Assembly: GCA_030653935.1 (NCBI GenBank)
Contig: JAURYL010000116.1
Coordinates: 1 to 64,000, forward strand
Origin: Pseudomonadota bacterium
Lineage (GTDB): Bacteria; Pseudomonadota; Gammaproteobacteria; Burkholderiales; Thiobacillaceae
Direction of reading: 5' to 3'
DNA length: 64,000 nt
A model generated the notes under the pieces. It was not told where the DNA came from. It made no database searches and saw only the letters and a program-made list of their open reading frames with translations. Positions 11,189-57,412 of this stretch are shown here, in pieces (within the stretch, counting starts at the first letter, position 1; each line of letters opens with the position of its first letter). A program made the translations under genes and the position numbers.

Positions 11189-12121
11189 ATGCTGATGACC
11201 CACGGCTGGTTTGGTATGCAGCATCAAGCCACCCGCCCCAACGCCGTCACCATCGGCAATTTCGATGGCATTCATCTCGGCCATCAGGCCATGCTGGCGC
11301 GGCTGACCTCGCGCGCCGCCTCGGTGGCCGCCGCGCCCACGGTGCTGACCTTCGAGCCGCATCCACGGGAAATTTTCACCCCGGAATCCGCCCCCACCCG
11401 CCTGACTTCCCTGCGCGAGAAGCTGGAGATTCTGCGTGGGCTGGGCGTGGCGCATGTCCATGTCTGCCGCTTTTCCAAACCCTTCGCCGCGCTCACCGCC
11501 GAGGATTTCGTGCGCCGCATCCTGGTGGACGGCCTGAAAGCACGTTATGTGCTGGTGGGCGACGACTTCCGTTTCGGCGCCAAACGGGCCGGGGACTTCG
11601 CCCTGCTGGAGCGCATGGGCAAGGAATTCGGCTTTCAGGCCGAAGCGCTGCACACCGTCGAAGCCGCCGGCCAGCGCGCATCGTCAACCGCCGTGCGCGA
11701 GGCGCTGGCCGAGGGTGACATGGCGATGGCCGCGCAACTGCTGGGCCGCCCCTATTCGATCTCCGGCCGCGTGGTGGGCGGCGACCAGTTGGGCCGCAAG
11801 ATCGGCTATCCCACCGCCAATATCCAGTTGAAGCACAACAAGCCGCCATTGAAGGGCATCTTCGCGGTGCGCGTGCAAGGTCTTGGGCAGCCGGACTGGC
11901 CCGGCGTCGCCAGTCTCGGCACCCGCCCCACCGTCCACACCAACGGCCGCCCGACCCTGGAAGTGCATCTGTTCAACTTCGACCGCAGCATCTACCGCGA
12001 ACACCTGCGCGTGGAGTTCCTGCACAAGCTGCGCGATGAAGCCAAGTTCCCCAACCTCGACACGTTGATCGCCCAGATCGATCTCGATGCGCAACAGGCG
12101 CGGGAATTGTTGAATGTCTGA
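11189..12121 (+). CDS. ribF: bifunctional riboflavin kinase / FAD synthetase
   Basis: Makes FMN and then FAD from riboflavin in the cytoplasm. 310 residues is the normal length. The N-terminal nucleotidyltransferase domain shows TIGNFDGIHLGHQAML (about 20-35) and the ISSTxVR-like RASSTAVREAL. The C-terminal flavokinase domain shows GRKIGYPTANI and VASLGTRPTV. I use the ATG at 11189, with GGAG upstream; ATGs at 11195 and 11219 are alternatives. In related bacteria ribF is followed directly by ileS; here an ORF6N gene is inserted, overlapping the end of ribF by eight bases. Confidence 0.95.
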   Translation: MLMTHGWFGMQHQATRPNAVTIGNFDGIHLGHQAMLARLTSRAASVAAAPTVLTFEPHPREIFTPESAPTRLTSLREKLEILRGLGVAHVHVCRFSKPFAALTAEDFVRRILVDGLKARYVLVGDDFRFGAKRAGDFALLERMGKEFGFQAEALHTVEAAGQRASSTAVREALAEGDMAMAAQLLGRPYSISGRVVGGDQLGRKIGYPTANIQLKHNKPPLKGIFAVRVQGLGQPDWPGVASLGTRPTVHTNGRPTLEVHLFNFDRSIYREHLRVEFLHKLRDEAKFPNLDTLIAQIDLDAQQARELLNV

Positions 12122-12875
12122 GCTGGTGCCCACGCCCTTTGCTGATCGCATCCTGATCGTGCGCGGCCAGCGGGTGATGCCAGCAGCCTGTCGGACTTTG
12201 GATCGTCGGCTGCGAAACGGCCGCGCCGGCCCGGTTTTCGCCGGCTTCTTGGGAAATAGTCCCGGCTATTCCCCGGCGAAGCCGTCAAAAACCGACCTCG
12301 GCGGGGCCGTTTCTCGCTATCGACGCCCAAAGTCCGACAGGCTGCTGGATGCCGATCTGGCGGAGCTTTATGGCGTGCCGACCAAGCGCTTCAACGAGCA
12401 GGTCAAACGCAACCTGGCCCGCTTTCCCGTCGACTTCATGTTTCAACTGACAGCGGAAGAGTTCCAATCTTTGAGGTCGCAATTTGCGACCTCAAAGATT
12501 GAGGGCAGGTGGTCGCAAGATGCGACCACCTCACCCGGCCGTGGCGGCCGCCGCCACATCCCCTACGCCTTCACCGAACACGGCGCCATCATGGCCGCCA
12601 CCATCCTCAATTCGCCCAAAGCGGTAGAGATGAGCGTGTTCGTGGTGCGCGCCTTCATCGAGCGCCGTAGGTTGGGCAAAGCGCAGCGTGCCCAACATCG
12701 CGGCGGTTCGTTGGGCACGCTTCGCTTTGCCCAACCTACGCCACTGGAACGCAAGGTTTCCTCCCACGACCAGGCCCTGGCCGGCGTCATCGACGCCATC
12801 CGCCAGTTGACCGCCCCTCCCAACCCGAAAAAACGTCCCATCGGTTTCGTCACCGACCCAGAAGAAAATGCCTGA
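12114..12875 (+). CDS. ORF6N-domain protein carrying two in-frame repeat insertions
   Basis: 253 residues. The ORF6N core, a DNA-binding-type domain common in phages and mobile regions, is recognisable but split: [10 protein letters not shown] (residues 13-22), then 55 foreign residues, then [30 protein letters not shown] and [20 protein letters not shown]. The 55 codons come from a 165-bp palindromic element (12180-12344). A second repeat (12667-12739, family A) encodes the basic stretch [11 protein letters not shown] to LRFAQPT and appears to replace part of the usual coiled coil before [10 protein letters not shown]. Both keep the frame open. The gene overlaps ribF and ileS by eight bases each, with near-identical overlap sequences (ATGTCTGA and ATGCCTGA). 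Whether the product is functional is doubtful. Confidence 0.8.
12181..12347. repeat. palindromic element inserted in the ORF6N gene
   Basis: Outer arms of 21 bp at 12181-12201 and 12327-12347 are perfect inverted repeats (CAGCAGCCTGTCGGACTTTG and complement). Inner segments (GAAACGGCC, CGCCGGCTTC) also pair imperfectly, giving a near full-length hairpin of about 167 bp. Relative to the ORF6N consensus it adds exactly 55 codons. Confidence 0.9.
12667..12739. repeat. family A repeat inside the ORF6N gene
   Basis: Full 73-bp copy with both arms, lying wholly inside the coding region and read in the same frame as the nosD1 copy. Confidence 0.92.
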
Positions 12876-16974: not shown

Positions 16975-17050
16975 GTAGGTTGGGCAAAGCGAAGCGTGCC
17001 CAACAAGCCGCCGTTGCAATGTTGGGCACGCTTCGCTTTGCCCAACCTAC
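16975..17050. repeat. family A palindromic repeat
   Basis: 76-bp copy between cheW and cheR, inside the predicted transcript. Confidence 0.9.
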
Positions 17051-20412: not shown

Positions 20413-20510
20413 CAATTTCGGATGTCGGATTGCGGATTTCGGATTTTTCTCGCGGCTGCGCCGCGCCCGACTTCCCACATCCGAAATCCGCAATCCGAAA
20501 TCCGAAATAG
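20413..20510. repeat. family E repeat (iterated CCGAAAT, inverted)
   Basis: Runs of ATTTCGG-type heptamers on the left and CCGAAAT on the right flank a C/G-rich loop, forming a long hairpin before the globin-coupled receptor. Other copies at 24948-25046, 25699-25731 and 27373-27391. Confidence 0.8.
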
Positions 20511-22600: not shown

Positions 22601-24778
22601 GTGATCAACGTGGAAAACCTCACCATGCGCGGCAAATTGATCGCCGTGCTGGTCTTGCCCCTGTTCGCCCTCGCCCTGTTTGCCGGGCACGCGCTCTGGC
22701 AGGAGGCCCGGCAGCAGGCCGGCATGGCGGCACTGGCGCGCGCCGGCACACTATCCATCGCCATCGGCGATCTGGTGCACGAACTGCAAGCGGAACGCGG
22801 CCGCACCAGCCTGGTCCTGTCCAGCCAGGGCGGCCGCTTCGAAGCAAAATTCGAAGCGGAACTGGGGCGTCAGCGCGCGAAGGCCGACCAGGCCTGGCAA
22901 GTGCTGGAATCACTCAAGGCGCGGGACACGACGCACGACCTGGGTCTGGCCGGCGGCCTGCTGACGGAACGCCGCGGCGAGCTCACCCGCTTGCGCGGGG
23001 AGGTCGATCACAGGACCCTCCCCGCCCTGCGCGCAGTGGAAAAGTACACCTTGGCGATACGTACCTTGCTGGGCACCCTGGAAAGTCTCGCCGCCTATTC
23101 GCCCGATGTCGATGTCTCGCGCCAGTTCAGCGCCTACCGCAGGCTGATCCAGGCCAAGGAAGCCGCCGGCCAGGAACGCGCCGAGGGGGGCCGCTGGTTG
23201 GCGGGAAACGCCGAGGCGAACCTGGCGAACCGGTTGATCGAGCTTGCCGCCAATCAAGCCCTGCTCCTCGACCTGTTCCAGACACAGGCGCCGGAACTGT
23301 TGCGCCTCGCCTGGCACGACGCCGAACAGACCGACTGCGTGCGCGGCCTGCCCGCGTTGCGCGCGGCCCTGCGCGACAGCCAGGCCAAATCACGCCCCAG
23401 CCCGGAAGCCTGGTTCGACAGCGCCAGTTGCCGCATGGAACGTCTGCACGACGTGGAAACCGCTTATGCGCGCTATCTCGCGGACCTGACCAGCGAACTG
23501 GACGCCAGCAGCCGCCGGCGTCTGGCACTGATCATTTTGTTGGCCCTGCTGCCGATTCCGCTCAGCCTGTGGCTGATCGTGCGGGTGGCGCGCAACGTCA
23601 GCGGCAACTCGCGCTGGCTGCTCACCGCCATGCACGGCATCGCCGGCGGCAACTTCAACGTCTCCCTGCCGCCGAGGAGTCGCGACGAACTGGGCGAACT
23701 GGGCCAAGGACTGGACGCTCTGCGTGGCCAGCTTGCCAAACTGGTGGCCGAACAGGGGCAACAACTGAAACGCGAACGCGACACCAGCGAGGAGCTGGAA
23801 CGGCACAGTCTGGAAATTCAGCATTTCGCCCAGCGCATCGCCGCCGGCGACCTCGCCGGGCGGCTGAAAGAAGGCGACGATACCCTGGGTCGTCTCGCCG
23901 GCAGCCTCAACCACATGGCTGGAGGCCTCGCCGGCCTGGCCGGACGGGTACGCGAAACCGGCTCCACTCTACTGGTGACGGTCAGCCAGATGCACAGCGC
24001 GGTGGCGGCACAGTCCTCCGGCGCCAGCGAACAGGCCGCCTCGGTCACCGAAACCATGACCACCCTGGAGCAGATCCGCGCCACCTCGGGGCAAACACTG
24101 GAGAAGGCACAGCGCCTCGGCGAAATGGCGGAACGGGCGCGCAGCGAGGGCGAGCACGGGCGATCAGTGGTGGAGGAAAGCATCGTCGGCATCAGTGAGG
24201 TGAGCGTCAAGGTGGATGCCATCGCCCGCACCATTCTGTCCCTCAACGAACAGACCCAGCGCATTGGCGAGATCACCTCGGTGGTGGGCGGCATCGCCCG
24301 ACAACTGCGTCTGCTATCGCTCAACGCGGCGATCGAGGCGACCCGCGCCGGCGAGGCCGGACTGGGCTTCGCGGTGGTCGCCAGCGAGGTGAAACAGCTC
24401 GCCGAACAATCTCAGGCTTCCACCGAACAGGTGCAGCACATCCTGGAAGAAATCCGCCATGCCACCGACCGCGCGGTAATGGCCACCGAGGATGGTGCCA
24501 AGGGCGTGGTGCGCGGCCTCGATCTGGTGCAGCGCGCGGGCGAGGCGATCCGTGGTCTGGAAGGCGTGGTGCGCGACACCAGCCTGGGCAGCCGCCAGAT
24601 CGTCGCCGCCGTGCGCCAGGAAAGCGCCGGCATCGAACAGATCGCCACCGCCATGAGCGACATCCACGCCGTCACCAGCCGCTTCGTCAGCGCGACCGAG
24701 CAGACCCGCGTCGCTACCGACGAACTCTCTCACCTCGCGCAGCGGCTATCGGCCGTGGCGAGCCTCTATAAGGTGTAA
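22601..24778 (+). CDS. chemoreceptor with NIT (nitrate/nitrite-sensing type) domain
   Basis: Membrane receptor of 725 residues starting at a GTG with GGGAG six bases upstream. TM1 (about 12-32), then a helical periplasmic NIT-type domain recognisable from [20 protein letters not shown] (about 50-70) and the helical repeats after it, TM2 (about 305-328), two HAMP-like segments, and a signalling domain with [19 protein letters not shown] and [19 protein letters not shown] domains sense nitrate or nitrite in characterised cases, which suits this denitrifier. A diverged 45-bp copy of the 3-prime end of this gene occurs at 24885-24929. Confidence 0.9.
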
Positions 24779-24801: not shown

Positions 24802-24880
24802 GTAGGTTGGGCAAAGCCGAAGGCGTGCCCAACATTTGCGGCACCTGCACGTTGGGCACGCTACGCTTTGCCCAACCTAC
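24802..24880. repeat. family A palindromic repeat
   Basis: 79-bp copy between the NIT receptor and a duplicated receptor 3-prime end, at an apparent deletion junction. Confidence 0.88.
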
Positions 24881-24884
24881 GGTG

Positions 24885-24929
24885 CTCGCGCAACGGCTGT
24901 CGGCCGTGGCGAGCCTCTATAAGGTCTAG
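24885..24929 (+). pseudogene. 3-prime remnant of a second chemoreceptor gene
   Basis: These 45 bases match the last 45 bases of the NIT receptor gene (24734-24778) at 41 positions. Two of the four differences are synonymous third-position changes, one is a stop-codon switch (TAA to TAG) and one changes GTG to GTC (both Val). It reads [14 protein letters not shown] and stop. The four-base gap to the family A repeat suggests that recombination at repeats removed the rest of a paralogous receptor. Confidence 0.75.
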
Positions 24930-24947: not shown

Positions 24948-25046
24948 ATTTCGGATTTCGGATTTCGGATTTCGGATTTGAAACCCGCAGGGCGCGCGCA
25001 AGCGCGCACCCCACATCCGAAATCCGCAATCCGAAATCCGAAATCT
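24948..25046. repeat. family E repeat (iterated ATTTCGG / CCGAAAT)
   Basis: Four ATTTCGG-type units, a GCGCGC-rich loop, then inverted CCGAAAT units, ending right at the cheA start codon (25048). It leaves no recognisable ribosome-binding site for cheA other than the repeat itself. Confidence 0.82.
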
Positions 25047-25047
25047 A

Positions 25048-27261
25048 ATGCCCCGTTCCGACATCGACCCACGCCTGATGCAGCAACTGCTGCAAACCTT
25101 CAGCGCCCAACTGGAAGAGCGTCTGCAGGCCATCGTCGATGGTTTGCTGGCGCTGGAACAGGGGGCCACGGGAGAGGCGCGCACGAAACTCCTCGACGCG
25201 ATCTTTCGCGCCGCCCACAACATCAAAGGCGCGGCGCGTGGCGTCGGTCTGGAGCGGTCGGCGGAACTGGCGCATGCCCTGGAAGACCTGTTCTCCGCGC
25301 TCAAGCGCGAGACCGTGGCCAACCAGCCCGGCCTGCTGGAACTGTGCCTCTCCGCAGTGGACGGAATGCGCCGCCTGGTCGAGGCGGACACGACGAACAG
25401 CCCCATCAGCCAGGCCAGCGTCGAATTGCTGCAACGCGTGCGCGCGGTCGCGGCGGGCGCCGCCCCGCCCCCCGCAAGCAAGACCACCCCGGCGGCGGCG
25501 GCGCGACCGCTGTCGGACACCATCCGCCTGCCGGTGGCGCGTCTGGATCGCATCGCCGACCTGGCGGAAGAATTGCAGGCCAGCAAGATCCGCGTCGACG
25601 ACCATTACCAGGCCAGCCGCCACCAGCACGACCTGGCGCAACGCCTGAAACAGCTTTGGGAGCAACTGAACCAGAGCCGGCATGACCAGATGGCATACCC
25701 ATCCGAAATCCGAAATCCGAAATCCGAAATTGCCCTGGACCGCCATCTACTGATCGAGGCCAGCGATCTGATCCTGGAAATCGAGCGTCTGGCCGATTCC
25801 ATGCAGCGCGGCCTGCGCGCCACCGTGGCGCAGTTGCGCCCCTTGGCCACCGGCCTGCGCGAGGACGTGCGCGATCTGCGTATGGTGCCGGCGGAGAGCG
25901 TGCTCAAACCGCTGGTACTGACCGTGCGCGACCTGGCGCGCGACCTGGGCAAGCGCGCGGAACTGCTACTGGAAGGCGAGCGCCTGGAAATGGATCGCGC
26001 CATCCTGGACGCCCTGCGTGACCCCCTCATGCACCTGCTGCGTAATGCCGTGGACCATGGCATCGAAGCGCCGACGCAGCGCCGCCTCATGGGCAAAACG
26101 GAGACCGGCCTGATCACGCTGCGCCTGGAACGGGAGGGGCAGTCGGTGGTGATTACGGTGTCCGACGACGGCGCCGGGGTCGATAGCACCCGGGTGCGCA
26201 GCCGCATCCGTGAGCTTGGCCTGGCCAGTGAAGAGGAAGTCGCCGCCCTGCCCTCGCGCGCCCTGCTCGACTATCTGTTCCGCCCCGGCTTCAGTACCCG
26301 TAGCGTCGTCAGCGAGGTCTCCGGGCGCGGGGTCGGGCTGGACGTGGTGCAGGTGAATCTGCAAGCCCTGGGCGGGCGCATCGCGCTGGAGACCGAACTG
26401 AACGGCGGCACCCGTTTCCGGCTCTGCCTGCCGCTGACCCTGGCCAGCGACCACGGCCTGCTGGTACGCGCGGCCGGCCAGGTGTTTGCCCTGCCCAGCC
26501 TGTATGTGCAACGTATTCTGGAGCTGACGCCGGCGCAGATTCTGGAGGTATCGGGCAGCCAGGCGGTGACGGTGGACGACACGCCGGTGCCATTGCGCGA
26601 CCTGGCCAGCCTGCTCGGGCACCGTGGCACGCTGGACGACTATGCCGAACTCATCAGCGTGGTGGTGATTCAGCGCGGCTGGCAGCGCGTGGCGCTGCGC
26701 GTCGACCACGTCCTGGGCGAACGCGAAATGGTGGTCAAGCCACTCGCACCGCCCCTGGTCGCGGTACGCCACATCGCCGGCGGCACCCTCGGCCGCGATG
26801 GCGACATCCTGCTGGTGCTGGCGGTGGCTGACCTGCTCGCCAGCGCACTGGGCGCCAGCGGTCGCGTGGTATCACATGCTCACCCCGAAGCACGCCCGGC
26901 GCCGCGCATCCTGATCGCCGACGACTCCATCACCACCCGCACCCTGGAACAGAGCATCCTGGAAAACGCCGGCTACCGCGTGCAGGTCGCAGCCGACGGC
27001 GAACAAGCCTGGGAAGCGCTGCACAGCGGCAGCTTCGACCTGCTCATCACGGATGTGGAAATGCCCGAACTGGATGGCTTCGAACTCACCCGCCGCATCC
27101 GCGCCGACGCCCACCTGGCCGATCTCCCGGTGGTCATCGTCACCTCGCTGGGCAGCGAAGAACACCGCCGCCGCGGCCTGGAAGTCCGCGCCGATGCTTA
27201 TGTCGTGAAAAGCAGCTTCGAGACCCGTGAACTGCTGGAAGTGGTGGGCCAGCTTTTATGA
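25048..27261 (+). CDS. cheA: hybrid chemotaxis kinase CheA with receiver domain
   Basis: Histidine kinase of 737 residues. Hpt (P1) domain with FRAAHNIKGAARGVGL (phosphoacceptor H57), dimerisation helices, HATPase (HLLRNAVDHGIE, VSDDGAGVD, GRGVGLDVV), CheW-like P5 domain (about 470-610) and a C-terminal REC (IADDSITTR, LLITDVEMPELDGF, TSLGS). The CheA-REC layout is that of WspE and other non-E. coli systems. About ten residues (SEIRNPKSEI, near 218-228) are encoded by an in-frame family E repeat inserted between the dimerisation helices, so helix geometry could be affected. It receives signals through the two CheW proteins and should phosphorylate CheB and the two REC proteins. Confidence 0.94.
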   Translation: MPRSDIDPRLMQQLLQTFSAQLEERLQAIVDGLLALEQGATGEARTKLLDAIFRAAHNIKGAARGVGLERSAELAHALEDLFSALKRETVANQPGLLELCLSAVDGMRRLVEADTTNSPISQASVELLQRVRAVAAGAAPPPASKTTPAAAARPLSDTIRLPVARLDRIADLAEELQASKIRVDDHYQASRHQHDLAQRLKQLWEQLNQSRHDQMAYPSEIRNPKSEIALDRHLLIEASDLILEIERLADSMQRGLRATVAQLRPLATGLREDVRDLRMVPAESVLKPLVLTVRDLARDLGKRAELLLEGERLEMDRAILDALRDPLMHLLRNAVDHGIEAPTQRRLMGKTETGLITLRLEREGQSVVITVSDDGAGVDSTRVRSRIRELGLASEEEVAALPSRALLDYLFRPGFSTRSVVSEVSGRGVGLDVVQVNLQALGGRIALETELNGGTRFRLCLPLTLASDHGLLVRAAGQVFALPSLYVQRILELTPAQILEVSGSQAVTVDDTPVPLRDLASLLGHRGTLDDYAELISVVVIQRGWQRVALRVDHVLGEREMVVKPLAPPLVAVRHIAGGTLGRDGDILLVLAVADLLASALGASGRVVSHAHPEARPAPRILIADDSITTRTLEQSILENAGYRVQVAADGEQAWEALHSGSFDLLITDVEMPELDGFELTRRIRADAHLADLPVVIVTSLGSEEHRRRGLEVRADAYVVKSSFETRELLEVVGQLL
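25699..25731. repeat. family E repeat inside cheA
   Basis: Four consecutive CCGAAAT-type heptamers within the cheA coding region; because heptamers shift frame, the translation cycles through SEIRNPKSEI without a stop. Confidence 0.88.
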
Positions 27262-27354: not shown

Positions 27355-27397
27355 GGCGCTGCGGCGCTCAATAAATCCGAAATCCGAAATCGCCCGC

Positions 27398-48965: not shown

Positions 48966-49916
48966 ATGATGGCTCGCTCATCCACCCAGACCACCCGACT
49001 GCTCACGCTCGGCGCCCTGCTGGTGCTGATGGCGACCTTTTTCGCGCCGATCTGGTGGGTCTCGCTGACCGCCCCGAATTACCCGCCCGACGCCTTCCCG
49101 GACGGCATCCGCATCCATTTCCACTTCGATGGCGTGTTCAACGGTTGCAAGGGCACCGTCATCAAAAACAGTGACATCTATCAGGGCGACCTGGGCGATG
49201 AGCGCGAGGAGGAACTGCGCGGCAGATCCTCCCAGAAACAGTCGCTGGACTGCGTCCACGAGATGAACACCATCAACCACTACGTCGGCATGTACCCCAT
49301 CGACGCCGGCGCGCCGGTGGAACGTGGTCTGTCGCGTTATTTCTTCGGCTTTTTCGCGGCCATGCTGGCGGCCTTTGCCTTCCCCGCGCGCAAGACCCAG
49401 GCCACCGTCCTGGCACTCGGCTTCCTCGCCGTGGCCGCGTGGATGGGCGGCGAGATGCTCGGCGCCGGGCGCCTGGACGCTCTGCTGGAACACTACCGCG
49501 TCGCCGCCGGCTCCTATTTCAACGAACCGGCCACCATCGCGCGCTGGACCGCCAACCTGGAACTGGCCCTGAAAATCAGCATGGCCGGCCTGGTGGCCGC
49601 GATGCTGGTCGTGCTCGCCGGGGTCTGGTACTCGCGTCCGTTCTCCCTCTTGTTGGCCCTGATACCGGCGCTGCTGCCGATCTTCTTCCTCATCGACTAC
49701 GCCGGCTGGCTCTGGTTCTTCGGCCACAACCTGCACCCCTGGGGCGCGTTCACGGTCAAGGCCTTCATGCCCACGGTGTTCGGCGAGGGCAAGGTGGCGC
49801 AGTTCTCCACCTATTCCTACCCCTACATCGGCTACGGGATGCTGCTGCTGGTGACCGGCCTGTTGTTGCCGGCGATCCTGCTGCGGCGCAAGGCGATGCG
49901 CGAAGGCCAGGCGTGA
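48966..49916 (+). CDS. nosB: NosB-like membrane protein
   Basis: 316 residues, about six TM segments: one at the N-terminus (LLTLGALLVLMATFFAPIWW), a periplasmic loop of about 100 residues with two Cys (GCKGTVIKN, LDCVHEMN), then five TM segments. No cofactor motif is visible. A membrane protein of this size between the cytochrome and nosD is characteristic of clade II nos operons and is called NosB; its role there is not established. Two tandem ATGs (48966, 48969) share an AGGA. It overlaps nosD1 by four bases (GTGA). Confidence 0.8.
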   Translation: MMARSSTQTTRLLTLGALLVLMATFFAPIWWVSLTAPNYPPDAFPDGIRIHFHFDGVFNGCKGTVIKNSDIYQGDLGDEREEELRGRSSQKQSLDCVHEMNTINHYVGMYPIDAGAPVERGLSRYFFGFFAAMLAAFAFPARKTQATVLALGFLAVAAWMGGEMLGAGRLDALLEHYRVAAGSYFNEPATIARWTANLELALKISMAGLVAAMLVVLAGVWYSRPFSLLLALIPALLPIFFLIDYAGWLWFFGHNLHPWGAFTVKAFMPTVFGEGKVAQFSTYSYPYIGYGMLLLVTGLLLPAILLRRKAMREGQA

Positions 49917-51358
49917 TCCTGCCGGATCGATGGCTCAGGCGTAGGTTGGGCAAAGTGCAGCGTGCCCGACATCGTGGCAGTTTGTTGGGCACGCTGCGCT
50001 TTGCCCAACCTACGGCGCTGCTCGCCGTCCTGGCCTTGACCGCCACTGCCTCGGTCGGCTTCGCGCCGGAACAGGAACCGGTGCGCGGCGAAACCGAGCA
50101 CGCCGCCGTGCGCACCGAAGTGAACGCGCCCAAACCGGTCTTCCCGCTCTATCTGCGCGACAAACGCATTCACGGGCTGCAACCGTTCCAGGAGTTGGTG
50201 GATGCCGCCCCTGCCGGTTCCGTGCTGCGCCCACCGCCGGGCAACTACGCCGGGCCGGTGAATTTGACCAAGCCGCTCACCATCGAGGGCAATGGCAAGG
50301 TCCGCATCGACGCCGGCGACAAGGGCAGTGTGTTCATCATCGCCACCGACGGCGCCGTCCTGCGTGGCGTCCACCTCACCGGCTCGGGCGATGTGCACGA
50401 CACCGAGGACGCCTGCCTGGAGATACGCGGCCACCGCAACGTCGCCGAAAACCTGATCATCGACAACTGCCTGTTCGGCATCGACCTGCGCCAGTCCAAC
50501 GAAAACATCGTGCGCAACAACCACATCTCCTCCAAACCCGCCGACCTCGGCGTGCGCGGCGACGGCCTACGCCTGTGGTACAGCATGAACAACCGGATCG
50601 AGGGCAACAGCCTGATCGATACCCGTGACTTCGTGGTCTGGTATTCCAACGGCAACCTCATCCGCAACAACCTCGGCCGGCGCAGCCGCTATTCCATGCA
50701 CTTCATGTTCTCCGAGAGCAACGTGGTGGAGGGCAACCGCTATTACGACAATGCCGTGGGCATCTATGTCATGTACACGGAAGGCATCACCATCCGCAAC
50801 AACCTGATCTCGCACGCCACCGGCGCCACCGGCATGGGTATCGGCTTCAAGGAGGCGAGCAACACGGTGGTGGAGAACAACGACATCATCTACTGCGCCA
50901 CCGGCATTGCCTCCGACCTGTCGCCCTACCAGCCCGACAGCAAGATATGGATCCGCAACAACCGCATCGCCTACAACGGCATCGGCATGCTGTTCAACAA
51001 CGAGCGCGTCGGCAACATCGTCAGCGACAACGTATTCGAGGGAAATCTCACCCATGTCGCGGTGAACGGCGCCGGCAACGTGCGCGGCAATACCTGGCGG
51101 GGCAATTACTGGGACGACTACCAGGGCTTCGACCGCAATAACGACGGCCGCGGCGACAGCGCCTACGAGACCTACGCCTATGCCGACCGCATCTGGATGG
51201 AACGGCCGCATGCCCTGTTCTTCAAGAATGCGCCGCTGATGGAGGCCCTGGATTTCCTGGAACGCCTCGCCCCCTTCTCCACCCCCAACCTGATCCTGCG
51301 CGACGACACGCCGCGCTTCACCAAGCCCGCGCGTTATGGCAGCCAAACTCCCACATAA
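49913..51358 (+). CDS. nosD: copper-site maturation protein NosD (first copy), repeat-derived signal peptide
   Basis: Periplasmic beta-helix protein required for assembling the NosZ copper cluster; 481 residues from the GTG at 49913, which overlaps the nosB stop. Mature part: PLYLRDKRIHGLQPFQELVD, the carbohydrate-binding/beta-helix repeats (RNNHISSK, RIEGNSLIDT, IRNNLISHA and similar), and a C-terminal GNYWDDYQGFDRNNDGRGDS. The N-terminus reads MILPDRWLRRRLGKVQRARH, then [20 protein letters not shown]: a complete family A repeat (49941-50013) encodes the basic region directly before the hydrophobic core. The protein should still be exported. It probably cooperates with the NosFY ABC transporter. 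Confidence 0.92.
   Translation: MILPDRWLRRRLGKVQRARHRGSLLGTLRFAQPTALLAVLALTATASVGFAPEQEPVRGETEHAAVRTEVNAPKPVFPLYLRDKRIHGLQPFQELVDAAPAGSVLRPPPGNYAGPVNLTKPLTIEGNGKVRIDAGDKGSVFIIATDGAVLRGVHLTGSGDVHDTEDACLEIRGHRNVAENLIIDNCLFGIDLRQSNENIVRNNHISSKPADLGVRGDGLRLWYSMNNRIEGNSLIDTRDFVVWYSNGNLIRNNLGRRSRYSMHFMFSESNVVEGNRYYDNAVGIYVMYTEGITIRNNLISHATGATGMGIGFKEASNTVVENNDIIYCATGIASDLSPYQPDSKIWIRNNRIAYNGIGMLFNNERVGNIVSDNVFEGNLTHVAVNGAGNVRGNTWRGNYWDDYQGFDRNNDGRGDSAYETYAYADRIWMERPHALFFKNAPLMEALDFLERLAPFSTPNLILRDDTPRFTKPARYGSQTPT
49941..50013. repeat. family A repeat inside the nosD1 signal-peptide coding region
   Basis: 73-bp copy with both arms, lying between codon 10 and codon 34 of nosD1. Confidence 0.92.
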
Positions 51359-52253
51359 GGCGGAACAAGCGCGCCGCCGCTTCCTGCGCGCCCTCATCGG
51401 CGGTGGCGCCCTGCTTGCCGCCGGTGGCGCCGGCTGGCTGCCGCTGGCTTATGGCGGCGAAGTGCGGCTGCGTCCCCCCGGCGCCCTGGAAGAGGATGAC
51501 TACCTCGCCTCCTGCATCAAATGCGGCCAGTGCGTCCAGGTCTGCCCGGTCAACGCCCTGATACTCGCCGACCTGGGCGACGGCCACGGCATCGGCGCAC
51601 CCTACATCGACGCCCGCGCCCAGGCCTGCGATTTCTCCTGCGACGCGGTGCAGTGCATCCTCGCCTGCCCCACCGGCGCCCTGACCTACACCAAACCCGA
51701 ACATCTGGACACGCGCGGCGCCATGCTCATGGCCGCCGCGCCCATCCTGCTGGCGAAGGAAAAAGACCCGGAGCCCACCCTCAACCTGAAGGAACGCATC
51801 GGCGTCGCGCGCCTGGCGCGGCCCGAACTGTGCCTGGCGCGCCAGGGAAAGGGCTGGAAGGGCGCGGCGCGGGCGGCGGAATATGAAGGCATGCTGCGCT
51901 TCATGGAGGTGGACCGCTGGCAACCGATTCCGCTCAACGACCACCCCTTCGACGTGGCGGTCTGCGACCTGTGTGTGCGCACCTGCCCGATCAAGGGGGC
52001 GATCACTTTGGAGGCGTTGGCGCCTGATCGAGCACCCTCACTGATGGAACTACCAGCCAACCGACTAGGCCGCCAAAAAACGTCGGCCAAGTCTCTGGCT
52101 GCCCCGGCCCCTCTCCCGCCTGCGGGAGAGGGGAGCAACAGAATGACCCCGGTGGTGCATGAACCCTGCGTCGGCTGCGGCGTGTGCGAAATGGCCTGCC
52201 CAACCGAACCGGCCGCCATCGTCATCGATCCGCGTCGCGGCTGGGAGGGGTGA
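51336..52253 (+). CDS. nosG: NosG, periplasmic-type polyferredoxin
   Basis: NapG-like Fe-S protein of 305 residues. The N-terminal RRRFLRALIGGGALLAAGGA looks like a twin-arginine-type signal or anchor (RRRFLR). Four cluster motifs: CIKCGQCVQVCP (about 57-68), CDFSCDAVQCILACP, CDLCVRTCP and CVGCGVCEMACP. Thought to take part with NosH in quinol-to-NosZ electron flow in clade II systems. About 40 residues (APSLMELPANRLGRQKTSAK onward, about 231-268) between the third and fourth motifs look inserted; the DNA contains a perfect 12-bp hairpin and is probably a repeat element. It overlaps nosD1 by 23 bases. Confidence 0.9.
   Translation: MAAKLPHKAEQARRRFLRALIGGGALLAAGGAGWLPLAYGGEVRLRPPGALEEDDYLASCIKCGQCVQVCPVNALILADLGDGHGIGAPYIDARAQACDFSCDAVQCILACPTGALTYTKPEHLDTRGAMLMAAAPILLAKEKDPEPTLNLKERIGVARLARPELCLARQGKGWKGAARAAEYEGMLRFMEVDRWQPIPLNDHPFDVAVCDLCVRTCPIKGAITLEALAPDRAPSLMELPANRLGRQKTSAKSLAAPAPLPPAGEGSNRMTPVVHEPCVGCGVCEMACPTEPAAIVIDPRRGWEG
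52108..52133. repeat. hairpin inside nosG
   Basis: CCCCTCTCCCGC and GCGGGAGAGGGG with a two-base loop, inside an apparent in-frame insertion in nosG. This hairpin type commonly recurs in intergenic DNA of GC-rich proteobacteria, but no second copy is in this window. Confidence 0.7.
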
Positions 52254-53221
52254 TGTCGCTACGTGAATCGGCACGGCTCCTGCTCGGCGGAGAAGTACGG
52301 AAACCCGCCCCCGAGGACTACACCCCCGGCGCCCGTCAGGTGCATGAACTCAAACGCATGGATGTCGAGCATCAACGCCAGCTCAAGGAACACGCCAAAC
52401 TCGGCCACCCGCACCGCAACCGCTGGCGCAACCGGCGCTGGGCGGTGCTGATCGCGGTGAACCTGCTGTTCGTGTTTTCCTTCTGGCTGGACATCCAGAT
52501 CCTCGAAGGCGCGCTCACCGCCTCGCGCTTCCTCGGCTTCCACCTCATCGACCTCAATTCCGCCCTGCAAGTGATGCTGGCGCACAAGCACATCCTGGTG
52601 AATCTGGTGATCGGCACCGCCACCGTGTTCGTGCTCTGGGTGCTACTGGGCGGGCGCGCGTTCTGTTCCTGGGTGTGTCCCTACCACCTGCTCGCGGAAT
52701 GGGCGGAAAGCCTGCATCTGTATCTGGTGAAAAAGAAGAAGGTCAGCGACCATGCCTTCCATCGCGGCCTGCGTACCGTGCTCTGGCTGCTGTTCGCGGC
52801 CCTCGCCTTCGCCACCGGCTACACCGTGTTCGAGACCCTGTCGCTCACCGGCATCCTCTCGCGCGCCCTGATCTACGGCCCCGGTCTTGGCCTGCTCTGG
52901 GTGCTGTTCTGGCTGCTGCTCGAAGTGGTCTACTCGCGCCGCGCCTGGTGCCGCTATTTCTGCCCCATCGGCCTCACCTATGGCGCCGTCGGCTTGGCCA
53001 CTCCGCTGCAAGTCGGCTACCGCCTGGGAAACTGCTTCCACGAAGGCGACTGCCGCAAGGTCTGCCTGGTGCCGCATGTGCTGGAATGCGTCATCAAGGG
53101 CCGCGCCACGGATGAAAAGATGGACATCGGCGCCGACTGCACCCGCTGCGGCCTGTGTGTGGACGTCTGCCCCAGCGGCGCCCTGAATTTCGAGGTCAAA
53201 GGCTTGAGCAAATGGCTGTAA
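52253..53221 (+). CDS. nosH: NosH, membrane Fe-S quinol dehydrogenase subunit
   Basis: NapH-like protein of 322 residues. A soluble N-terminal stretch (1-62), four to five TM segments, two membrane-associated Cys motifs (CSWVCPYHLL and CRYFCPIGL) and C-terminal ferredoxin motifs (CFHEGDCRKVC and CTRCGLCVDVCP). Proposed to oxidise quinol and hand electrons to NosG and cytochrome. The start overlaps the nosG stop by one base (TGATG). A long family A repeat lies between this gene and nosF. Confidence 0.92.
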   Translation: MSLRESARLLLGGEVRKPAPEDYTPGARQVHELKRMDVEHQRQLKEHAKLGHPHRNRWRNRRWAVLIAVNLLFVFSFWLDIQILEGALTASRFLGFHLIDLNSALQVMLAHKHILVNLVIGTATVFVLWVLLGGRAFCSWVCPYHLLAEWAESLHLYLVKKKKVSDHAFHRGLRTVLWLLFAALAFATGYTVFETLSLTGILSRALIYGPGLGLLWVLFWLLLEVVYSRRAWCRYFCPIGLTYGAVGLATPLQVGYRLGNCFHEGDCRKVCLVPHVLECVIKGRATDEKMDIGADCTRCGLCVDVCPSGALNFEVKGLSKWL

Positions 53222-53229
53222 ACAAACCC

Positions 53230-53361
53230 GTAGGTTGGGCAGCGGAGTCGTTGCCCGCTTTAGCGGCTTACGAATCCGGCGTGCCCCTGGCGGGTGCAAA
53301 TCGCAGCGTGCCCAACACACACCGGCAATGTTGGGCACGCCTTCGGCTTTGCCCAACCTAC
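53230..53361. repeat. enlarged family A repeat between nosH and nosF
   Basis: 132-bp version: family A arms with an extra internal segment of about 55 bp. The AGGAA ribosome-binding site of nosF begins directly after the right arm. Confidence 0.88.
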
Positions 53362-53372
53362 AGGAACCATCC

Positions 53373-54227
53373 GTGATCGAACTTCGCCACGTCAGCAAAC
53401 AATTCAAGAAGAACCTCGTTCTCGACGACCTCAACCTCAGCGTCGCCTGCGGCGAGCGCATCGCTCTGATCGGCTCCAACGGCGCCGGCAAGACCACGCT
53501 GATTCGCTGCCTGCTGGGGGAATACGTGCATGCCGGTGAGTTGTCCATCCTCGACCTGAACCCGCGCCAGGACCGCGCCGACCTGTTGCGCCGCATCGGT
53601 TTCGTGCCGCAATTGCCGCCGCCGCTACGCATGAGCGTGGGCGATCTGCTGCGCTTTGCCGGTGAACTCGCCGGCACCGACCCGGCCCGCTTCGACGCCG
53701 TCGCCGCGCAACTGGGCCTGGACGTGGCGAAGGTGCGGCATCTGCCCTTCGTCAAACTCTCCGGCGGCATGAAGCAGAAGATCCTCATCGCCGTCGCCCT
53801 CGGCCGCGACTGCGAACTTCTGATCCTCGACGAACCCGCCGCCAACCTCGACCCGGAAGCGCGCCACGCCTTCTTCGACCTGCTCGCCGCGCGCCTGGGC
53901 CAGGCCACCATGCTGATCTCCAGCCATCGTCTCGACGAGGTAGCCCCCCTGGTCAACCGGGTGCTGGAACTGGATATGGGGCGCATCGTCCTGGACGACC
54001 GCGTCGCCGATGATGTCGCCCTCGCCGGAAAGGTGCGCTGCCGTCTGGTCTTGCGCCGCACCGAACCCGCCATCGCCAAGACCCTCGCCGAATGGGGCCT
54101 CGGCAACGCTGGCGACGAGATGATCTGGCAAGGCGCCATCGCCGGCCCAGACCGGCTGCGCTTCCTCGGCATGCTCGCCCGTTATGTCGGCGTGCTCACT
54201 CATATCGAAATGGAGGAACAGGCATGA
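53373..54227 (+). CDS. nosF: NosF, ABC transporter ATPase
   Basis: 284 residues. Walker A GSNGAGKT (about 36-43), Q-loop FVPQLPPP, signature LSGGMKQKI, Walker B LLILDEPAANLD and H-switch ISSHRLDE. With NosY it powers transport of a sulfur species or maturation step for the NosZ CuZ site. GTG start at 53373 with AGGAA eight bases upstream; the longer open frame is translation of the repeat. Ends with an ATGA overlap into nosL. Confidence 0.94.
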   Translation: MIELRHVSKQFKKNLVLDDLNLSVACGERIALIGSNGAGKTTLIRCLLGEYVHAGELSILDLNPRQDRADLLRRIGFVPQLPPPLRMSVGDLLRFAGELAGTDPARFDAVAAQLGLDVAKVRHLPFVKLSGGMKQKILIAVALGRDCELLILDEPAANLDPEARHAFFDLLAARLGQATMLISSHRLDEVAPLVNRVLELDMGRIVLDDRVADDVALAGKVRCRLVLRRTEPAIAKTLAEWGLGNAGDEMIWQGAIAGPDRLRFLGMLARYVGVLTHIEMEEQA

Positions 54228-54772
54228 CCGCTTCCCGTCGCGACGCCCCCTGTAGCGCCGGCATCCCCGCCGGCAAGCGGGTCGCGGACCCGCTTTCAAC
54301 GGGCAATGCCGGCGAGACGCCGGCGCTACAGCGTGGCCGCCTGCGCCTGCTCGCCGCGCTCGCCATCATCCCTATCCTCCCCGCCTGCACACGCGACCCC
54401 GGCCATGGACCGGGAAAAGTGCATTGGGACCGCGACACCTGTGCCCGTTGCGGCATGGCGGTGAGCGACCGCCACTACGCCGCCCAGATACGCGGCGGGC
54501 CGAAGCGCGAAGTGTTCAAGTTCGACGACATCGGCTGCGCCCTGTTCTGGCTCCAGGAGCAAAAGATTCCCTGGGCCGAAGCGGCGGACACCGAAATCTG
54601 GGTCAACAACTTCCGCACCGGCGAATGGCTGGATGCCCGCCAGGCGCATTACCTGCCCGGCAAGACCACGCCCATGGCCTACGGCTTCGGCGCCCTGGGA
54701 GGGGACACGCCCGAGGCCGGCAGCGTCGATTTCGACACCATGAAGGCGAACATCCTGGCCAGGGGCAAATAA
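54224..54772 (+). CDS. nosL: NosL, copper chaperone lipoprotein with repeat-derived N-terminus
   Basis: Outer-membrane or periplasmic lipoprotein delivering Cu(I) to NosZ; 182 residues. The mature part carries the copper motif CARCGMAVSDRHYAAQ, then KFDDIGCALFWL and WVNNFRTGEWLDARQAHY. The signal is LRLLAALAIIPILPAC (lipobox LPAC, Cys near residue 52). Before it stand about 31 residues (DAPCSAGIPAG onward) encoded by a family C repeat (54251-54330), so the n-region is unusually long. An internal start giving a short signal is possible but no suitable ATG is present. Coupled to nosF and nosY by overlaps. Confidence 0.92.
   Translation: MTASRRDAPCSAGIPAGKRVADPLSTGNAGETPALQRGRLRLLAALAIIPILPACTRDPGHGPGKVHWDRDTCARCGMAVSDRHYAAQIRGGPKREVFKFDDIGCALFWLQEQKIPWAEAADTEIWVNNFRTGEWLDARQAHYLPGKTTPMAYGFGALGGDTPEAGSVDFDTMKANILARGK
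54251..54330. repeat. family C repeat inside the nosL signal-peptide coding region
   Basis: 80 bp from TGTAGCGCCGGCATC to GCCGGCGCTACA with an inner GCGGGTC/GACCCGC hairpin, in frame within nosL codons 10-36. Confidence 0.9.
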
Positions 54773-55608
54773 TGAGCAAGACCAACGATTTCTGGCCCAC
54801 CCTGCGCCTGGAGATAAACACCTCCCTGCGCGCGCGCTGGTTCGCCGTGCATTCTCTGGTATTCGGCGGCATCGTCGCCCTGCTCTTCGTCTTCGGCCTG
54901 ACCGAATCGCGGGTGCTCGGCTTCATCGGCCTGTCGCGCCTGCTGGTGACTTACATCCAGTTGGCGATGGCCATCCTGCCCATCTTCGTGCTCATCACCA
55001 CGGTGCGTTCGGTCGCCGGCGACCGCGAGGCGGGCGTATTCGAGTATCTGCTGGCCCTGCCGGTGTCGCTCTCGGCCTGGTTCTGGGGCAAGTTCCTCGG
55101 CCGCTATCTGATGGTGTTCGCGCCGGTGTTCCTGGCCATGCTCGGCGCTACGCTGTGGGCCTTGATTCGCGACATCCCGGTGCCCTGGGGCATGTTCGGC
55201 TATTACACCGCCCTGCTCGCCGCCATGACCTGGTGTTTCCTCGGCATCGCCATGTTGATTTCCACCCTGGCGCGTTCCACCGACGTGGCCCAGGGCGCAG
55301 CCTTCCTCACCTGGCTCACGCTGCTGCTGTTCCTCGACCTGATCCTGCTCGGGGTGATGATCCAGGAACATGTCGCCGCCGAAGTGGCCGTCGCCATCGC
55401 CCTGTTCAACCCGCTGCAATCGTTCCGCACCGCTGCTTTGATGCTGTTCGACCCGCAGCTCATCGTCCTGGGGCCGTCCGCCTATGTCATCTTCGACCTG
55501 TTCGGGGCGCTGGGTTATCAAGTCTTCGCCCTGGCCTGGCCGACCCTGATCGGCACGCTGTGCGCTGTCGGGGGGTATCGAATGTTCAGACGTGGGGATT
55601 TGTTATGA
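54772..55608 (+). CDS. nosY: NosY, ABC transporter permease
   Basis: 278 residues, six TM segments, ABC-2 type permease. Characteristic FEYLLALPVSLSAWFWGKFL (about 87-106) is the coupling-helix region contacting NosF. Partners with NosF, and in the family docks NosD and NosL for CuZ assembly. Start overlaps the nosL stop by one base; ends overlapping the TlpA-like gene by four bases. Confidence 0.93.
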   Translation: MSKTNDFWPTLRLEINTSLRARWFAVHSLVFGGIVALLFVFGLTESRVLGFIGLSRLLVTYIQLAMAILPIFVLITTVRSVAGDREAGVFEYLLALPVSLSAWFWGKFLGRYLMVFAPVFLAMLGATLWALIRDIPVPWGMFGYYTALLAAMTWCFLGIAMLISTLARSTDVAQGAAFLTWLTLLLFLDLILLGVMIQEHVAAEVAVAIALFNPLQSFRTAALMLFDPQLIVLGPSAYVIFDLFGALGYQVFALAWPTLIGTLCAVGGYRMFRRGDLL

Positions 55609-56171
55609 ACTGGAAAATCACAGGCTTTAAACATCGCGGCGGTTTGTTGGGCACGCTGCGCTTTGCCCAACCTACTTGGCTACTACTGGTCGGCCTGCTG
55701 GCTGTATCCGGCGCGATGGCGGAGGAGCCGATCAACTTCTACGCGGCGACCACCGCCGCCTTCGCGCAACCCGGCGGCGGCAGCCTGAAGATCGACAACC
55801 TCAAGGGGCGCCCGGCGGTGGTGAATTTCTGGGCCACCTGGTGCCCACCCTGTCGCGAGGAATTGCCGCTGCTGGTCAAGGTTCATGCCCGCTACACCAA
55901 GAAATACGGCGACAAGCTCGGCTTCCTCGGCTTGGCGGTGGAAGACAACGTCGAATTCGTCGGCGAATACGCCCGCGCCTACGGCCTCGAATACCCCATC
56001 GCCGCCGGCCGCGAACCGGCCATCGCCCTGATGCAGGCACTGGGCAACAAGCAGGCGGGCATGCCCTATACCGTGGTGCTGGATGGCGACGGCCGGGTGG
56101 TCTACGCCAAGCGCGGACTGGTGAAGGAAAAAGACCTGGACCGCGCACTGGCGCCACTGCTGCGGCGATGA
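55605..56171 (+). CDS. TlpA/ResA-like thioredoxin, repeat-derived signal peptide
   Basis: 188 residues. Thioredoxin fold with active site FWATWCPPCREELP (about 72-85) and a cis-Pro loop AGMPYTVVLDGDGRV. Exported: the hydrophobic core WLLLVGLLAVSGAMA ends at about residue 38. The stretch before it ([15 protein letters not shown], about 10-24) is the translation of the right half of a family A repeat. A periplasmic thiol reductant within the nos operon could keep NosL or NosZ cysteines (CuA, CuZ maturation) reduced; this is inference from context. Confidence 0.9.
   Translation: MNWKITGFKHRGGLLGTLRFAQPTWLLLVGLLAVSGAMAEEPINFYAATTAAFAQPGGGSLKIDNLKGRPAVVNFWATWCPPCREELPLLVKVHARYTKKYGDKLGFLGLAVEDNVEFVGEYARAYGLEYPIAAGREPAIALMQALGNKQAGMPYTVVLDGDGRVVYAKRGLVKEKDLDRALAPLLRR
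55631..55675. repeat. partial family A repeat inside the TlpA-like gene
   Basis: Right half only (loop to GCCCAACCTAC), about 45 bp, in frame upstream of the signal-peptide hydrophobic core. Confidence 0.85.
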
Positions 56172-57412
56172 TTTGTAGCGCCGGCTTCCAGCCGGCTGTT
56201 TTCCAGTGCTTCGCAATAGCGCTGCTGTTCTGCCTGACCGCATCAGCCCAGGCTGGCCTTCCCACGCTACAAGCTCTGATCGACGCCACCCCGGCGGGCG
56301 GCACCCTGCGCCCCCCCGCCGGCCGCTATGCCGGCCCGGCGGTCATCGACAAACCCCTCACCCTCGACGGCGGCGGCCGCGTCACCCTGGATGGTGGCGG
56401 CCGCGGTTCGGTGTTGAGCGTGCGCGCCGGCAACGTCAGCGTGCGCGGCATGCACTTGAGCAACTCCGGCGCCACCCACGACGGCGTCGATGCCGGCCTG
56501 CTGATCGAAGAAAGCAACGGCGCGCGGGTGGAAGGCAATGTCATCGACGATGTGCTGTTCGGCATCCACCTAAAACAGGCCAGCCATACCATCGTGCGCG
56601 GCAACACGATTCGCGGCCGGGAAGCGGAACTCAATCTGCGCGGCGACGGCATCCGCCTGTGGAACAGCCATTTCAACCGGATCGAGGGCAACCGCCTCGA
56701 CGGCATTCGCGACCTCACCGTCGCCAACTCCGCCGACAACCTGTTCATCCGCAACCATGTCAGCAACGGCCGCTACGGCATGCAATTGATCTTCTCGCCG
56801 CGCAATCGCATCGAAGGCAACCTCGTCAGCCACACCACCACCGGCATCGCCGTGCTGTATTCAGATCAGGTCACCCTGCGCGGCAACCGCATCGAACATG
56901 TGCGCGATGTCGCCGGCGCCGGGTTGGCCTTCAAGGGCAGCGCCGAGGCCGAGGTCACAGGCAACACCGTCCTGCATTGCACGGTGGCCGTTCAGGCCGA
57001 CGCCCCGCCCTACCCCGACGCGCGCCATCGTTTCCAGAACAACCGCTTCGCCCACAACGTCACCGGCATGTTCTTCTACGGCGACAAGGGCGGCCATATC
57101 GTGCGCAACAACCGCTTCGAGAAGAACCTCATGCAGATCGGCGTCTCCGCTCCCAGCAGCGCGCGCGACAACGACTGGCGCGGCAATGACTGGGACGATT
57201 ACGAAGGTTTCGACCGCAACGGCGACGGCATCGGCGACACTCCCTACGCGCTCCATTACTATGCCGACCGCATCTGGATGGAGACGCCGCAGGCGCGCTT
57301 CTTCCGCAACTCGCCGGCGCTGGAATTGCTCGATTTCCTGGAACGACTGGCGCCGTTCTCGGTGCCGGAACTGATCCTGAAAGATCCGCAACCACGCTGG
57401 TCACGAAAATGA
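56168..57412 (+). CDS. NosD-like beta-helix protein (second copy), repeat-derived signal peptide
   Basis: 414 residues, a paralogue of the NosD at 49913. Shared features: LQALIDATPAGGTLRPPAGR at the start of the mature part, many beta-helix turns (NRIEGNRLDGI, NRIEGNLVSH, RNNRFEKNL) and a C-terminal GNDWDDYEGFDRNGDGIGDT. The signal peptide begins MICSAGFQPAVFQ, the translation of a TGTAGCGCCGGC repeat, followed by the core CFAIALLFCLTASAQA. Two NosD-type proteins in one operon is unusual; the second may serve another copper step or another target. ATGA overlaps join it to both neighbours. Confidence 0.88.
   Translation: MICSAGFQPAVFQCFAIALLFCLTASAQAGLPTLQALIDATPAGGTLRPPAGRYAGPAVIDKPLTLDGGGRVTLDGGGRGSVLSVRAGNVSVRGMHLSNSGATHDGVDAGLLIEESNGARVEGNVIDDVLFGIHLKQASHTIVRGNTIRGREAELNLRGDGIRLWNSHFNRIEGNRLDGIRDLTVANSADNLFIRNHVSNGRYGMQLIFSPRNRIEGNLVSHTTTGIAVLYSDQVTLRGNRIEHVRDVAGAGLAFKGSAEAEVTGNTVLHCTVAVQADAPPYPDARHRFQNNRFAHNVTGMFFYGDKGGHIVRNNRFEKNLMQIGVSAPSSARDNDWRGNDWDDYEGFDRNGDGIGDTPYALHYYADRIWMETPQARFFRNSPALELLDFLERLAPFSVPELILKDPQPRWSRK
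56173..56205. repeat. family C repeat at the nosD2 start
   Basis: TGTAGCGCCGGCTTCCAGCC arm beginning five bases after the A of the ATG; encodes residues 3-12. Confidence 0.75.

Follow-up and report, generated by a model that had tools for sequence, protein, structure and literature searches.

The subject of this analysis is a nos operon in a 64,000-nucleotide stretch of DNA (hereafter the window; positions 1 to 64,000 of contig JAURYL010000116.1, assembly GCA_030653935.1) from a Pseudomonadota bacterium of the Thiobacillaceae, in which short palindromic repeats stand near the start of four genes for predicted exported proteins. The genome (G000) comprises 3.8 Mb in 135 contigs, of which contig 84 contains the window. 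The genes of the operon are ordered nosZ, a cytochrome-like gene, "nosB," nosD1, nosG, nosH, nosF, nosL, nosY, a gene for a TlpA-like protein (tlpA), nosD2, and a last small gene. NosZ was identified as a Sec-dependent nitrous-oxide reductase by TIGR04246, NosD1 by PF05048 and TIGR04247, NosD2 by TIGR04247, and the TlpA-like thioredoxin-fold protein by Redoxin PF08534; NosL matched PF05573 with an E value of 0.0005 and 20.9 bits, which is below the family cut-off of 24. NosG and NosH have matches to ferredoxins of the NapG and NapH types, NosF matches an ABC ATPase, and NosY matches an ABC-2 permease; a Pfam search returned no match for nosB or the last gene of the operon. The names cytochrome, nosB, nosG, nosH, nosF, and nosY are presumptive ones assigned from place in the operon, and all genes were called by a codon-usage script of our own for which the window served as the training set.

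Two families of repeats, A and C, occur at the four starts, either singly (repetitive extragenic palindromes [REPs]) or as inverted pairs (REP doublets forming hairpins [REPINs]). In nosD1 (49913..51358, plus strand), which begins with GTG in a 4-nt overlap with the stop codon of the preceding gene, a family A REPIN occupies 49941..50013, or about codons 10 to 34; its arms (49940-49971 and 49983-50014) are 94% complementary, and the hydrophobic core of the signal peptide, ALLAVLALTA, follows at 50015..50044. The lipoprotein gene nosL (54224..54772, plus strand), whose start shares an ATGA overlap with nosF, contains a family C REPIN at 54252..54329, within the n-region, ahead of the core LLAALAIIPI (54347..54376) and an LPAC lipobox. 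In tlpA (55605..56171, plus strand; ATGA overlap with nosY), a single family A REP, one half of the pair, lies on the minus strand at 55645..55675, before the core LLLVGLLAVS (55680..55709). Finally, nosD2 (56168..57412, plus strand; ATGA overlap with tlpA) has a single family C REP on the plus strand at 56175..56197, from codon 3, and the core CFAIALLFCL at 56207..56236. The ends of the single REPs were set by a fixed script length. All four elements are in frame between the start codon and the core, giving n-regions of 34 (NosD1), 41 (NosL), 25 (TlpA), and 13 (NosD2) residues, and the cores have mean Kyte-Doolittle values of 2.59, 2.87, 2.80, and 3.01, respectively. The n-region is positively charged in NosD1, NosL, and TlpA, and cleavage motifs assigned by inspection are LPAC, AMA, and AQA, with GFA at the likely site in NosD1. 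From these cores and motifs, the four products are predicted to be exported. The original prediction, made from the letters of the window, had thus located palindrome-encoded residues directly ahead of the signal-peptide core in four exported proteins of the operon with correct coordinates and frames.

Family A reads GTAGGTTGGGC..GCCCAAC, family C reads GTAGCGCCGGC..GCCGGC, and a third family, D, found in congeners, reads GTRGGAGCSRGC... Families A and C have the GTAG head (GTAG/GTGG class) and adjoining short palindrome that are seen in REPs. With one mismatch at most, the window holds 23 matches to GTAGGTTGGGC (0.78 expected from shuffles) and 18 to GTAGCGCCGGC (3.36 expected). In the whole genome, the family A half-site with at most three mismatches occurs 67 times on the forward strand and 67 times on the reverse (reversed control, 0), and the exact family C word occurs 144 + 136 times (280), versus 10 + 14 (24) for its control. 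These counts are far above those of the shuffles and reversed controls, and the repeats are therefore not due to chance. When 100 of the 134 family A places and 100 of the 280 family C places of the genome were sampled, inverted pairs made up 60 of 73 family A sites and 22 of 77 family C sites. The genome also has five matches to Y1_Tnp, and the GTAG-headed elements are probably miniature elements mobilized by a REP-associated tyrosine transposase (RAYT). A similar upstream flank, resembling ATGAACCTAAAAACCGCAGTTG..CGT, is found at several family A and D elements in four species (G011, G006, G033, and G000) and may indicate that the mobile unit is larger than a REPIN.

The genus is represented by 23 genomes in our collection, and nosD is found in five of them (G000, G006, G011, G017, and G033). 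The unrooted tree of the operon is ((G000,G006),G011,(G017,G033)), with ultrafast bootstrap values of 99 and 100. Over 36 pairwise comparisons, the mature parts of the genes gave ratios of nonsynonymous to synonymous substitution rates (dN/dS) of 0.13 to 0.50; the genes therefore look functional and under purifying selection. G017 has none of the four elements, and its proteins begin MRFTRLSLVAAL.. (NosD1), MTSKPQRDRLRLLAAL.. (NosL), VKHWLLIGLL.. (TlpA), and MSTGMAWRHALC.. (NosD2), with n-regions of 4 to 11 residues, compared to 13 to 80 in 13 measured element-bearing cases. The original prediction had named as evidence against itself orthologues with the same residues and no repeat; in G017, repeats and residues are missing together in all four proteins. 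In a sixth congener (L455), the head words of families A, C, and D are all missing from the fetched locus, which has nosD1, nosL, and nosD2 and lacks a called tlpA; the 4-nt overlap of nosF and nosL is already present.

Of the 20 starts given by four genes in five species, 14 are occupied. In NosD1, the element belongs to family A in G000 and G006 and to family D in G011, with G017 and G033 empty; in NosL, it belongs to family C in G000, G006, and G033 and to family D in G011; in TlpA, it belongs to family A in G000 (half) and as a full REPIN in G006 and G011, and to family D in G033; in NosD2, a single family C element is present in G000, G006, and G033, with G011 empty as well as G017. The unrooted tree requires at least seven insertions (A and D in NosD1, C and D in NosL, A and D in TlpA, and C in NosD2), a minimum that permits losses. 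The assertion that the pattern is "more than one accident" was accordingly too cautious, as three families in four of five species have entered the same four n-regions. Two of these n-regions are unusual in themselves. That of NosD2 in G006 is 80 residues long (L052, 1930-2170) and holds, besides the family C REP, a second, different palindrome (CCCCCCTTTTTCAAAGGGGGG...); in TlpA of G033, the family D REPIN (L096, 4045-4117, reverse strand) seems to provide residues of the hydrophobic core itself (..SRASPLLLASAVFAQE). For other genera, we took the best 80 of 183 relatives from a NosD1 profile search, four of the 80 being congeners already used. When 210 gene starts were scanned for hairpins under strict settings, 6 were flagged, of which 5 were in congener loci (2 of these 5 were not the element of that gene) and the sixth was a GTAG hairpin in an open frame before a likely nosD start of a Sulfurimicrobium metagenome-assembled genome (L460). 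The scan is insensitive, as known cases such as the family D element of G011 NosD1 and the family C element of G033 NosL escaped it, and few flags do not mean absence elsewhere.

The positions of the elements relative to genes were examined at 220 loci taken with no selection for start or stop patterns, namely, the family A and C sites of G000, family A of G006, family D of G011, family C of G033, the window, and the nos region of G033; the set thus includes the window and one locus (L096) fetched for being nos. Loci from searches for ATGA before an element are biased toward stop and start codons, and the distance test was redone without them; the site lists from those searches give at least the sites listed, and 40 of 76 entries were scored in another candidate list. 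The 271 sites were mostly extragenic, with 207 intergenic, 20 over a stop codon, 18 internal to a gene, 16 in its first codons, 7 near its end, and 3 over a start codon (one of which also overlaps a stop). In 121 gaps between tandem genes, the element was closer to the upstream stop in 86 and to the start in 33, with 2 ties (P = 1.3e-6), at a median distance of 24 nt from the stop; where a facing stop lay less than 150 nt away, 100 of 167 intergenic sites were within 40 nt of it. Among genes of at least 70 amino acids (aa), 11 of 13 with element-bearing starts overlapped the upstream gene, compared to 89 of 503 other genes (P = 5e-7). Of the 11, seven belong to nos; with nos operons excluded, the count is 4 of 6 (P = 0.012). 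Since the elements follow stop codons and the genes overlap, the elements end up at the N terminus of the next protein. This reason for the location, elements just behind the upstream stop in overlapping gene pairs, had been overlooked in the original prediction.

A first enrichment run on the G000 genome yielded 11 raw rows. A wider set of 490 sites, drawn partly from the ATGA search, had 34 in the first codons of a gene; 30 rows passed a filter (minimum gene length of 70 aa and minimum score of 20), with any site dropped whose 20-nt flank had already occurred at another site. The nosD1 row of G006 was lost in this way, and nosL and nosD2 of G006 also lie outside these 30. A hydrophobic stretch followed in 21 of the 30, compared to 268 of 923 control genes (P = 6e-6). 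Within the operon, an element lies inside the gene at 14 of the 20 starts of Sec or lipoprotein products versus 0 of 19 starts of NosG, NosH, NosY, and the last gene, a contrast between species that are not phylogenetically independent and with the last gene unmatched in G033; counted as minimal events, all seven fall at 4 of 8 such starts (P = 0.008). Outside nos, the products that look exported or membrane anchored are an ApbE-like lipoprotein (L106 and L430), five with signal peptides (L014, L265, L277, L356, and L363), another lipoprotein (L323), a prepilin-like start in L381 and perhaps L432, and two membrane proteins (L131 and L388). These were judged by inspection, and L356 and L432 are below the hydrophobicity cut-off of the count.

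We consider it likely that the N-terminal residues are translated REPs and REPINs that inserted neutrally just past stop codons, came to be read as part of overlapping genes, and persisted where the N terminus was tolerant. Such elements lie mostly no more than about 40 nt past a stop codon, a spot that is intergenic in ordinary gene pairs and falls on the opening codons of the downstream gene in pairs overlapping by a few nucleotides (ATGA or GTGA); here, the elements begin at about codons 3 to 14. An insert would survive only if its frame were open and the downstream protein tolerated a longer N terminus, and the Sec or lipoprotein n-region, which is removed from the mature protein, may be the most tolerant place. 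The four nos signal peptides would then have been lengthened by unselected insertions with no new function. This reading draws directly on the elements, their frames, the empty orthologues, the repeated insertions, the proximity to stops, the gene overlap, and, for one gene with few changes, the constraint on the core and the near lack of it on the element; it would entail translation from these starts, a mobilizing enzyme, neutrality, and secretion that still works.

Several results weigh against parts of this reading. Without nos, the bias toward exported products is modest: 11 of 19, compared to 268 of 923 controls (P = 0.009), and the same 11 of 19 gave a P value of 0.044 against overlap-junction controls (57 of 164); with only the overlap-junction cases (7 of 12), the P value was 0.09. 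For four rows of the 19 (rows 16, 25, 26, and 30), the true start may be past the element. Some element-bearing proteins look cytosolic (L109, L314, and L298), being presumably CobU-like, copper-ATPase-like, and DUF3025-like, respectively, by inspection. A filter favoring signal peptides is therefore likely, with firm visibility only inside nos. Moreover, the distances of overlapping and intergenic elements from the stop (medians of 20 and 27) gave a P value of 0.064 in a Mann-Whitney test, so that their equality is not demonstrated, and nosD1 does not overlap nosB in G017, G033, or L455, so that this overlap arose with the insertion or later.

It is unlikely, in our judgment, that the elements are instead kept as RNA hairpins that tune translational coupling, termination, or mRNA stability, with the added residues as the price. 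The NosD1 and NosL junction RNAs do fold far more stably than shuffles (z scores of -8.95 and -3.38), but those of TlpA and NosD2 show no unusual folding (z scores of 0.09 and -0.30), and the fold was rejected as a common cause, with two of four junctions affected. A lowering of translation has been reported for REPs that lie under 16 nt from a stop codon (PMC12306157); in the window, the distances from stop to element are 24, 24, 36, and 3 nt, the last being that from the tlpA stop, and thus only one is in that range. G017 lacks all four elements, and the filled junctions vary by species. The nosH-nosF spacer is more favorable to a function in RNA, as all five species have a GTAG-type element there in differing families: family A in G000 (an untranslated REPIN at window positions 53230..53361, 8 nt past the nosH stop) and G006, a GTAGGATGTGG type in G011 and, partly degenerate, in G017, and family D in G033 (L051, L053, L054, and L096 in the four congeners).

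It is very improbable that the elements were selected as n-regions because positive charge improves export, as had also been proposed. The net charge of element-bearing n-regions is higher in NosD1 (+5 to +8, versus +2 in empty ones), TlpA (+3 to +5, versus +1), and NosL (+4 to +6, versus +3). However, that of NosD2 is 0 in G000, where it has no Lys or Arg, and -1 in G033, although it is +8 in G006, where the n-region also holds other DNA, and the family C element adds a net charge of 0 to both NosL and NosD2 in G000. The open frames of paired family A, C, and D elements have mean net charges of +3.9, +2.2, and +2.4. Charge is thus a property of the repeats, with no sign of selection; the family A frame is basic, as had been noted, and the suggestion that it was wanted for this, or that the repeats were selected for it, is unsupported. 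A single required frame was also rejected, since NosD1 and TlpA share one family A frame and another open frame is used in L106, L381, and L432. In addition, the element segment of NosD1 shows little amino acid constraint. Between G000 and G006, codons 10 to 34 have two synonymous and four nonsynonymous changes (dN/dS of 0.74 from only six changes), compared to five synonymous and no nonsynonymous changes in the 26 codons from 35 to 60. The NosD1 element thus appears to evolve loosely ahead of a constrained core, in one gene and from small numbers, which lends support to the earlier idea that repeats are tolerated where constraint is lowest.

The remaining alternative, that initiation occurs downstream and the elements are merely intergenic, is the least credible of all, for although Di Nocera et al. 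warned in 2013 (PMC3733652) that misannotation may account for most REPs that seem to lie in NH2-terminal coding regions, and although NosD1 and TlpA have TTG or GTG codons inside the element, the gene overlaps, the empty orthologues, and the missing alternative starts favor coding here. In nosL of G000, codons 2 to 65 contain no in-frame ATG, GTG, or TTG, the next start being not before codon 66, and in nosD2 of G000 and G033, codon 1 is the sole in-frame start among the first 70. The prediction had listed start sites downstream of the repeats as a possible objection, and in these genes there are none before the core; the repeats in NosL and NosD2 are therefore very probably translated, as judged from the reading frames. 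The alternative starts before the core in NosD1 and TlpA of the window are confined to the TTG and GTG codons inside the element and have Shine-Dalgarno scores of 0 or 1 on our scale. A GGAGG-like site and the ATGA overlap are kept at the NosL start in all five species, and the frame is open through 13 elements, each on one contig; NosL of G006, split over two contigs within the element, was counted as occupied and is outside these 13.

A different outcome was found where nosD1 meets nosG. The two genes overlap in G000, G017, and G033. In G006, a GTAG REPIN that belongs to a further family (GTAGGTTGGTTTAGCC...; L051, oriented 5073-5176, reverse strand) stands just past the nosD1 stop, and both of its flanks copy the ancestral junction, with a gapless flank match of 49 nt (score of 16.5, versus 14.5 for the best of 500 shuffles) and identities to the empty site of G000 of 59/68 on the left and 81/90 on the right. 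The junction being duplicated, nosG has its own start, and the two genes no longer overlap. G011 has a family A REPIN after the nosD1 stop and the nosG start downstream, with no clear duplication by eye; in both species, the element lies upstream of the nosG start.

When 90-nt flanks were compared, 17 of 124 family A pairs reached the threshold score of 14, compared to 0.06 expected from mispaired flanks, and elsewhere the counts were 1 of 26 family A singles, 0 of 144 for family C, 2 of 115 for family D, and 4 of 1,719 element-free junctions. At loci without pattern selection, 14 of 78 family A pairs did so (P = 7e-17 versus junction controls). Doubtful among the 17, and all included in the 14 of 78, are L184 (counted twice, in a tandem array), L189 (a C-rich 15-nt match), and L001, L230, and L197 (maybe other repeats or contig edges). 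The duplicated copies of host DNA are 15 to 81 nt long and often include the stop or start of a gene. Direct duplications of 22 to 55 nt flank family A REPINs at window positions 24734-24777, 24802-24880, 24885-24928, and 16975-17050 and at L076, L114, L448, L085, L074, and L426. At L076, L114, and window position 16975, the stop of the upstream gene is in the left copy and the start of the downstream gene is in the right; the arrangement is mirrored at L085, L074, and L426. None of the four nos signal-peptide sites reached the threshold in this comparison; the left flank of the TlpA element, suggestive by eye as a relic of a duplicated target, is absent from the duplication list and was rejected.

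These flanking duplications are a more surprising lead than the translated elements. We tentatively suggest, at somewhat less than even odds, that family A REPINs insert with a target duplication of about 20 to 80 nt that at overlapping junctions copies both the stop and the start, so that overlapping genes become separated without being broken, and that insertions without duplication are translated, with those in signal-peptide genes mostly surviving; there would thus be two routes by which overlapping junctions are dissolved or rewritten. After duplication at an overlap, the left copy would supply the stop of the upstream gene and the right copy the start of the downstream gene. The comparison with an empty site concerns the nosD1-nosG junction, where the element is not of family A, and for family A the suggestion draws on the flanks.

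Other features of the operon and window are recorded here for completeness. In nosG of G000, about 37 extra codons with a hairpin (CCCTCTCCCGCCTGCGGGAGAGGG) lie between the ferredoxin motifs (about 52030-52145); they were not found in nosG of G006, G011, G017, or G033. A family A REPIN at 12667-12739 is in frame in the 3' part of a gene at 12114-12875, just ahead of the gene at 12868-15708, which is presumably ileS. Short repeats of the AATCCGA type are found near gene boundaries at 20474-20508, 25010-25044, 25696-25730, and 27364-27391.

The elements resemble several known systems. The GTAG REPs described in PMC3733652 share the GTAG/GTGG head and short palindrome, are likewise mostly extragenic, and are likewise reported close to the 3' ends of upstream open reading frames (ORFs); some are intragenic, more at the NH2 terminus of an ORF than at its end. 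The terms "signal peptide" and "leader" were not found in the main text of that paper, and the repeated occupation of the same signal peptides distinguishes the present case. REPINs associated with RAYTs (Bertels and Rainey, 2011; PMC3116915) are similarly dispersed inverted REP pairs of about 70 nt, and Y1_Tnp proteins are present in the G000 genome; the passages on REPINs in that paper contain no flanking duplications, unlike the family A REPINs here. The RU-2/YPAL element in the signal peptide of a Yersinia exported protein (Delihas, 2007; PMC2759123) is a 168-bp element similar to miniature inverted-repeat transposable elements and is larger than these REPs, and that study stresses one exported protein, in contrast to several genes of one operon, several families, and several species. 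Rickettsia palindromic elements (RPEs; PMC2229807 and PMC3733652) are likewise palindromic repeats translated in frame within functional genes. RPE-4 and RPE-6 are of the CGTC type (PMC3733652), whereas the heads here are GTAG/GTGG, and RPEs are inserted in many proteins, whereas the present inserts are N terminal and mostly in exported proteins. Among the matches listed by a literature search on REPs or palindromes and signal peptides, from which most subscription journals were outside, nothing nearer than the 2007 report appeared, and a search on REPIN and "target site duplication" gave no paper on REPIN insertion, as judged by title.

The mechanism by which REPINs are disseminated was still to be elucidated according to a 2021 paper (PMC8266576), and the flanking duplications offer a handle on how they insert. 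The operon is, moreover, a well-supported case of N-terminal REPs that look like real coding sequence and not misannotation. A simple rule, that REPs behind stops combined with overlapping genes lead to the start of the next protein, predicts where such cases are to be found, and the n-regions of signal peptides would be a natural gauge of REPIN activity.

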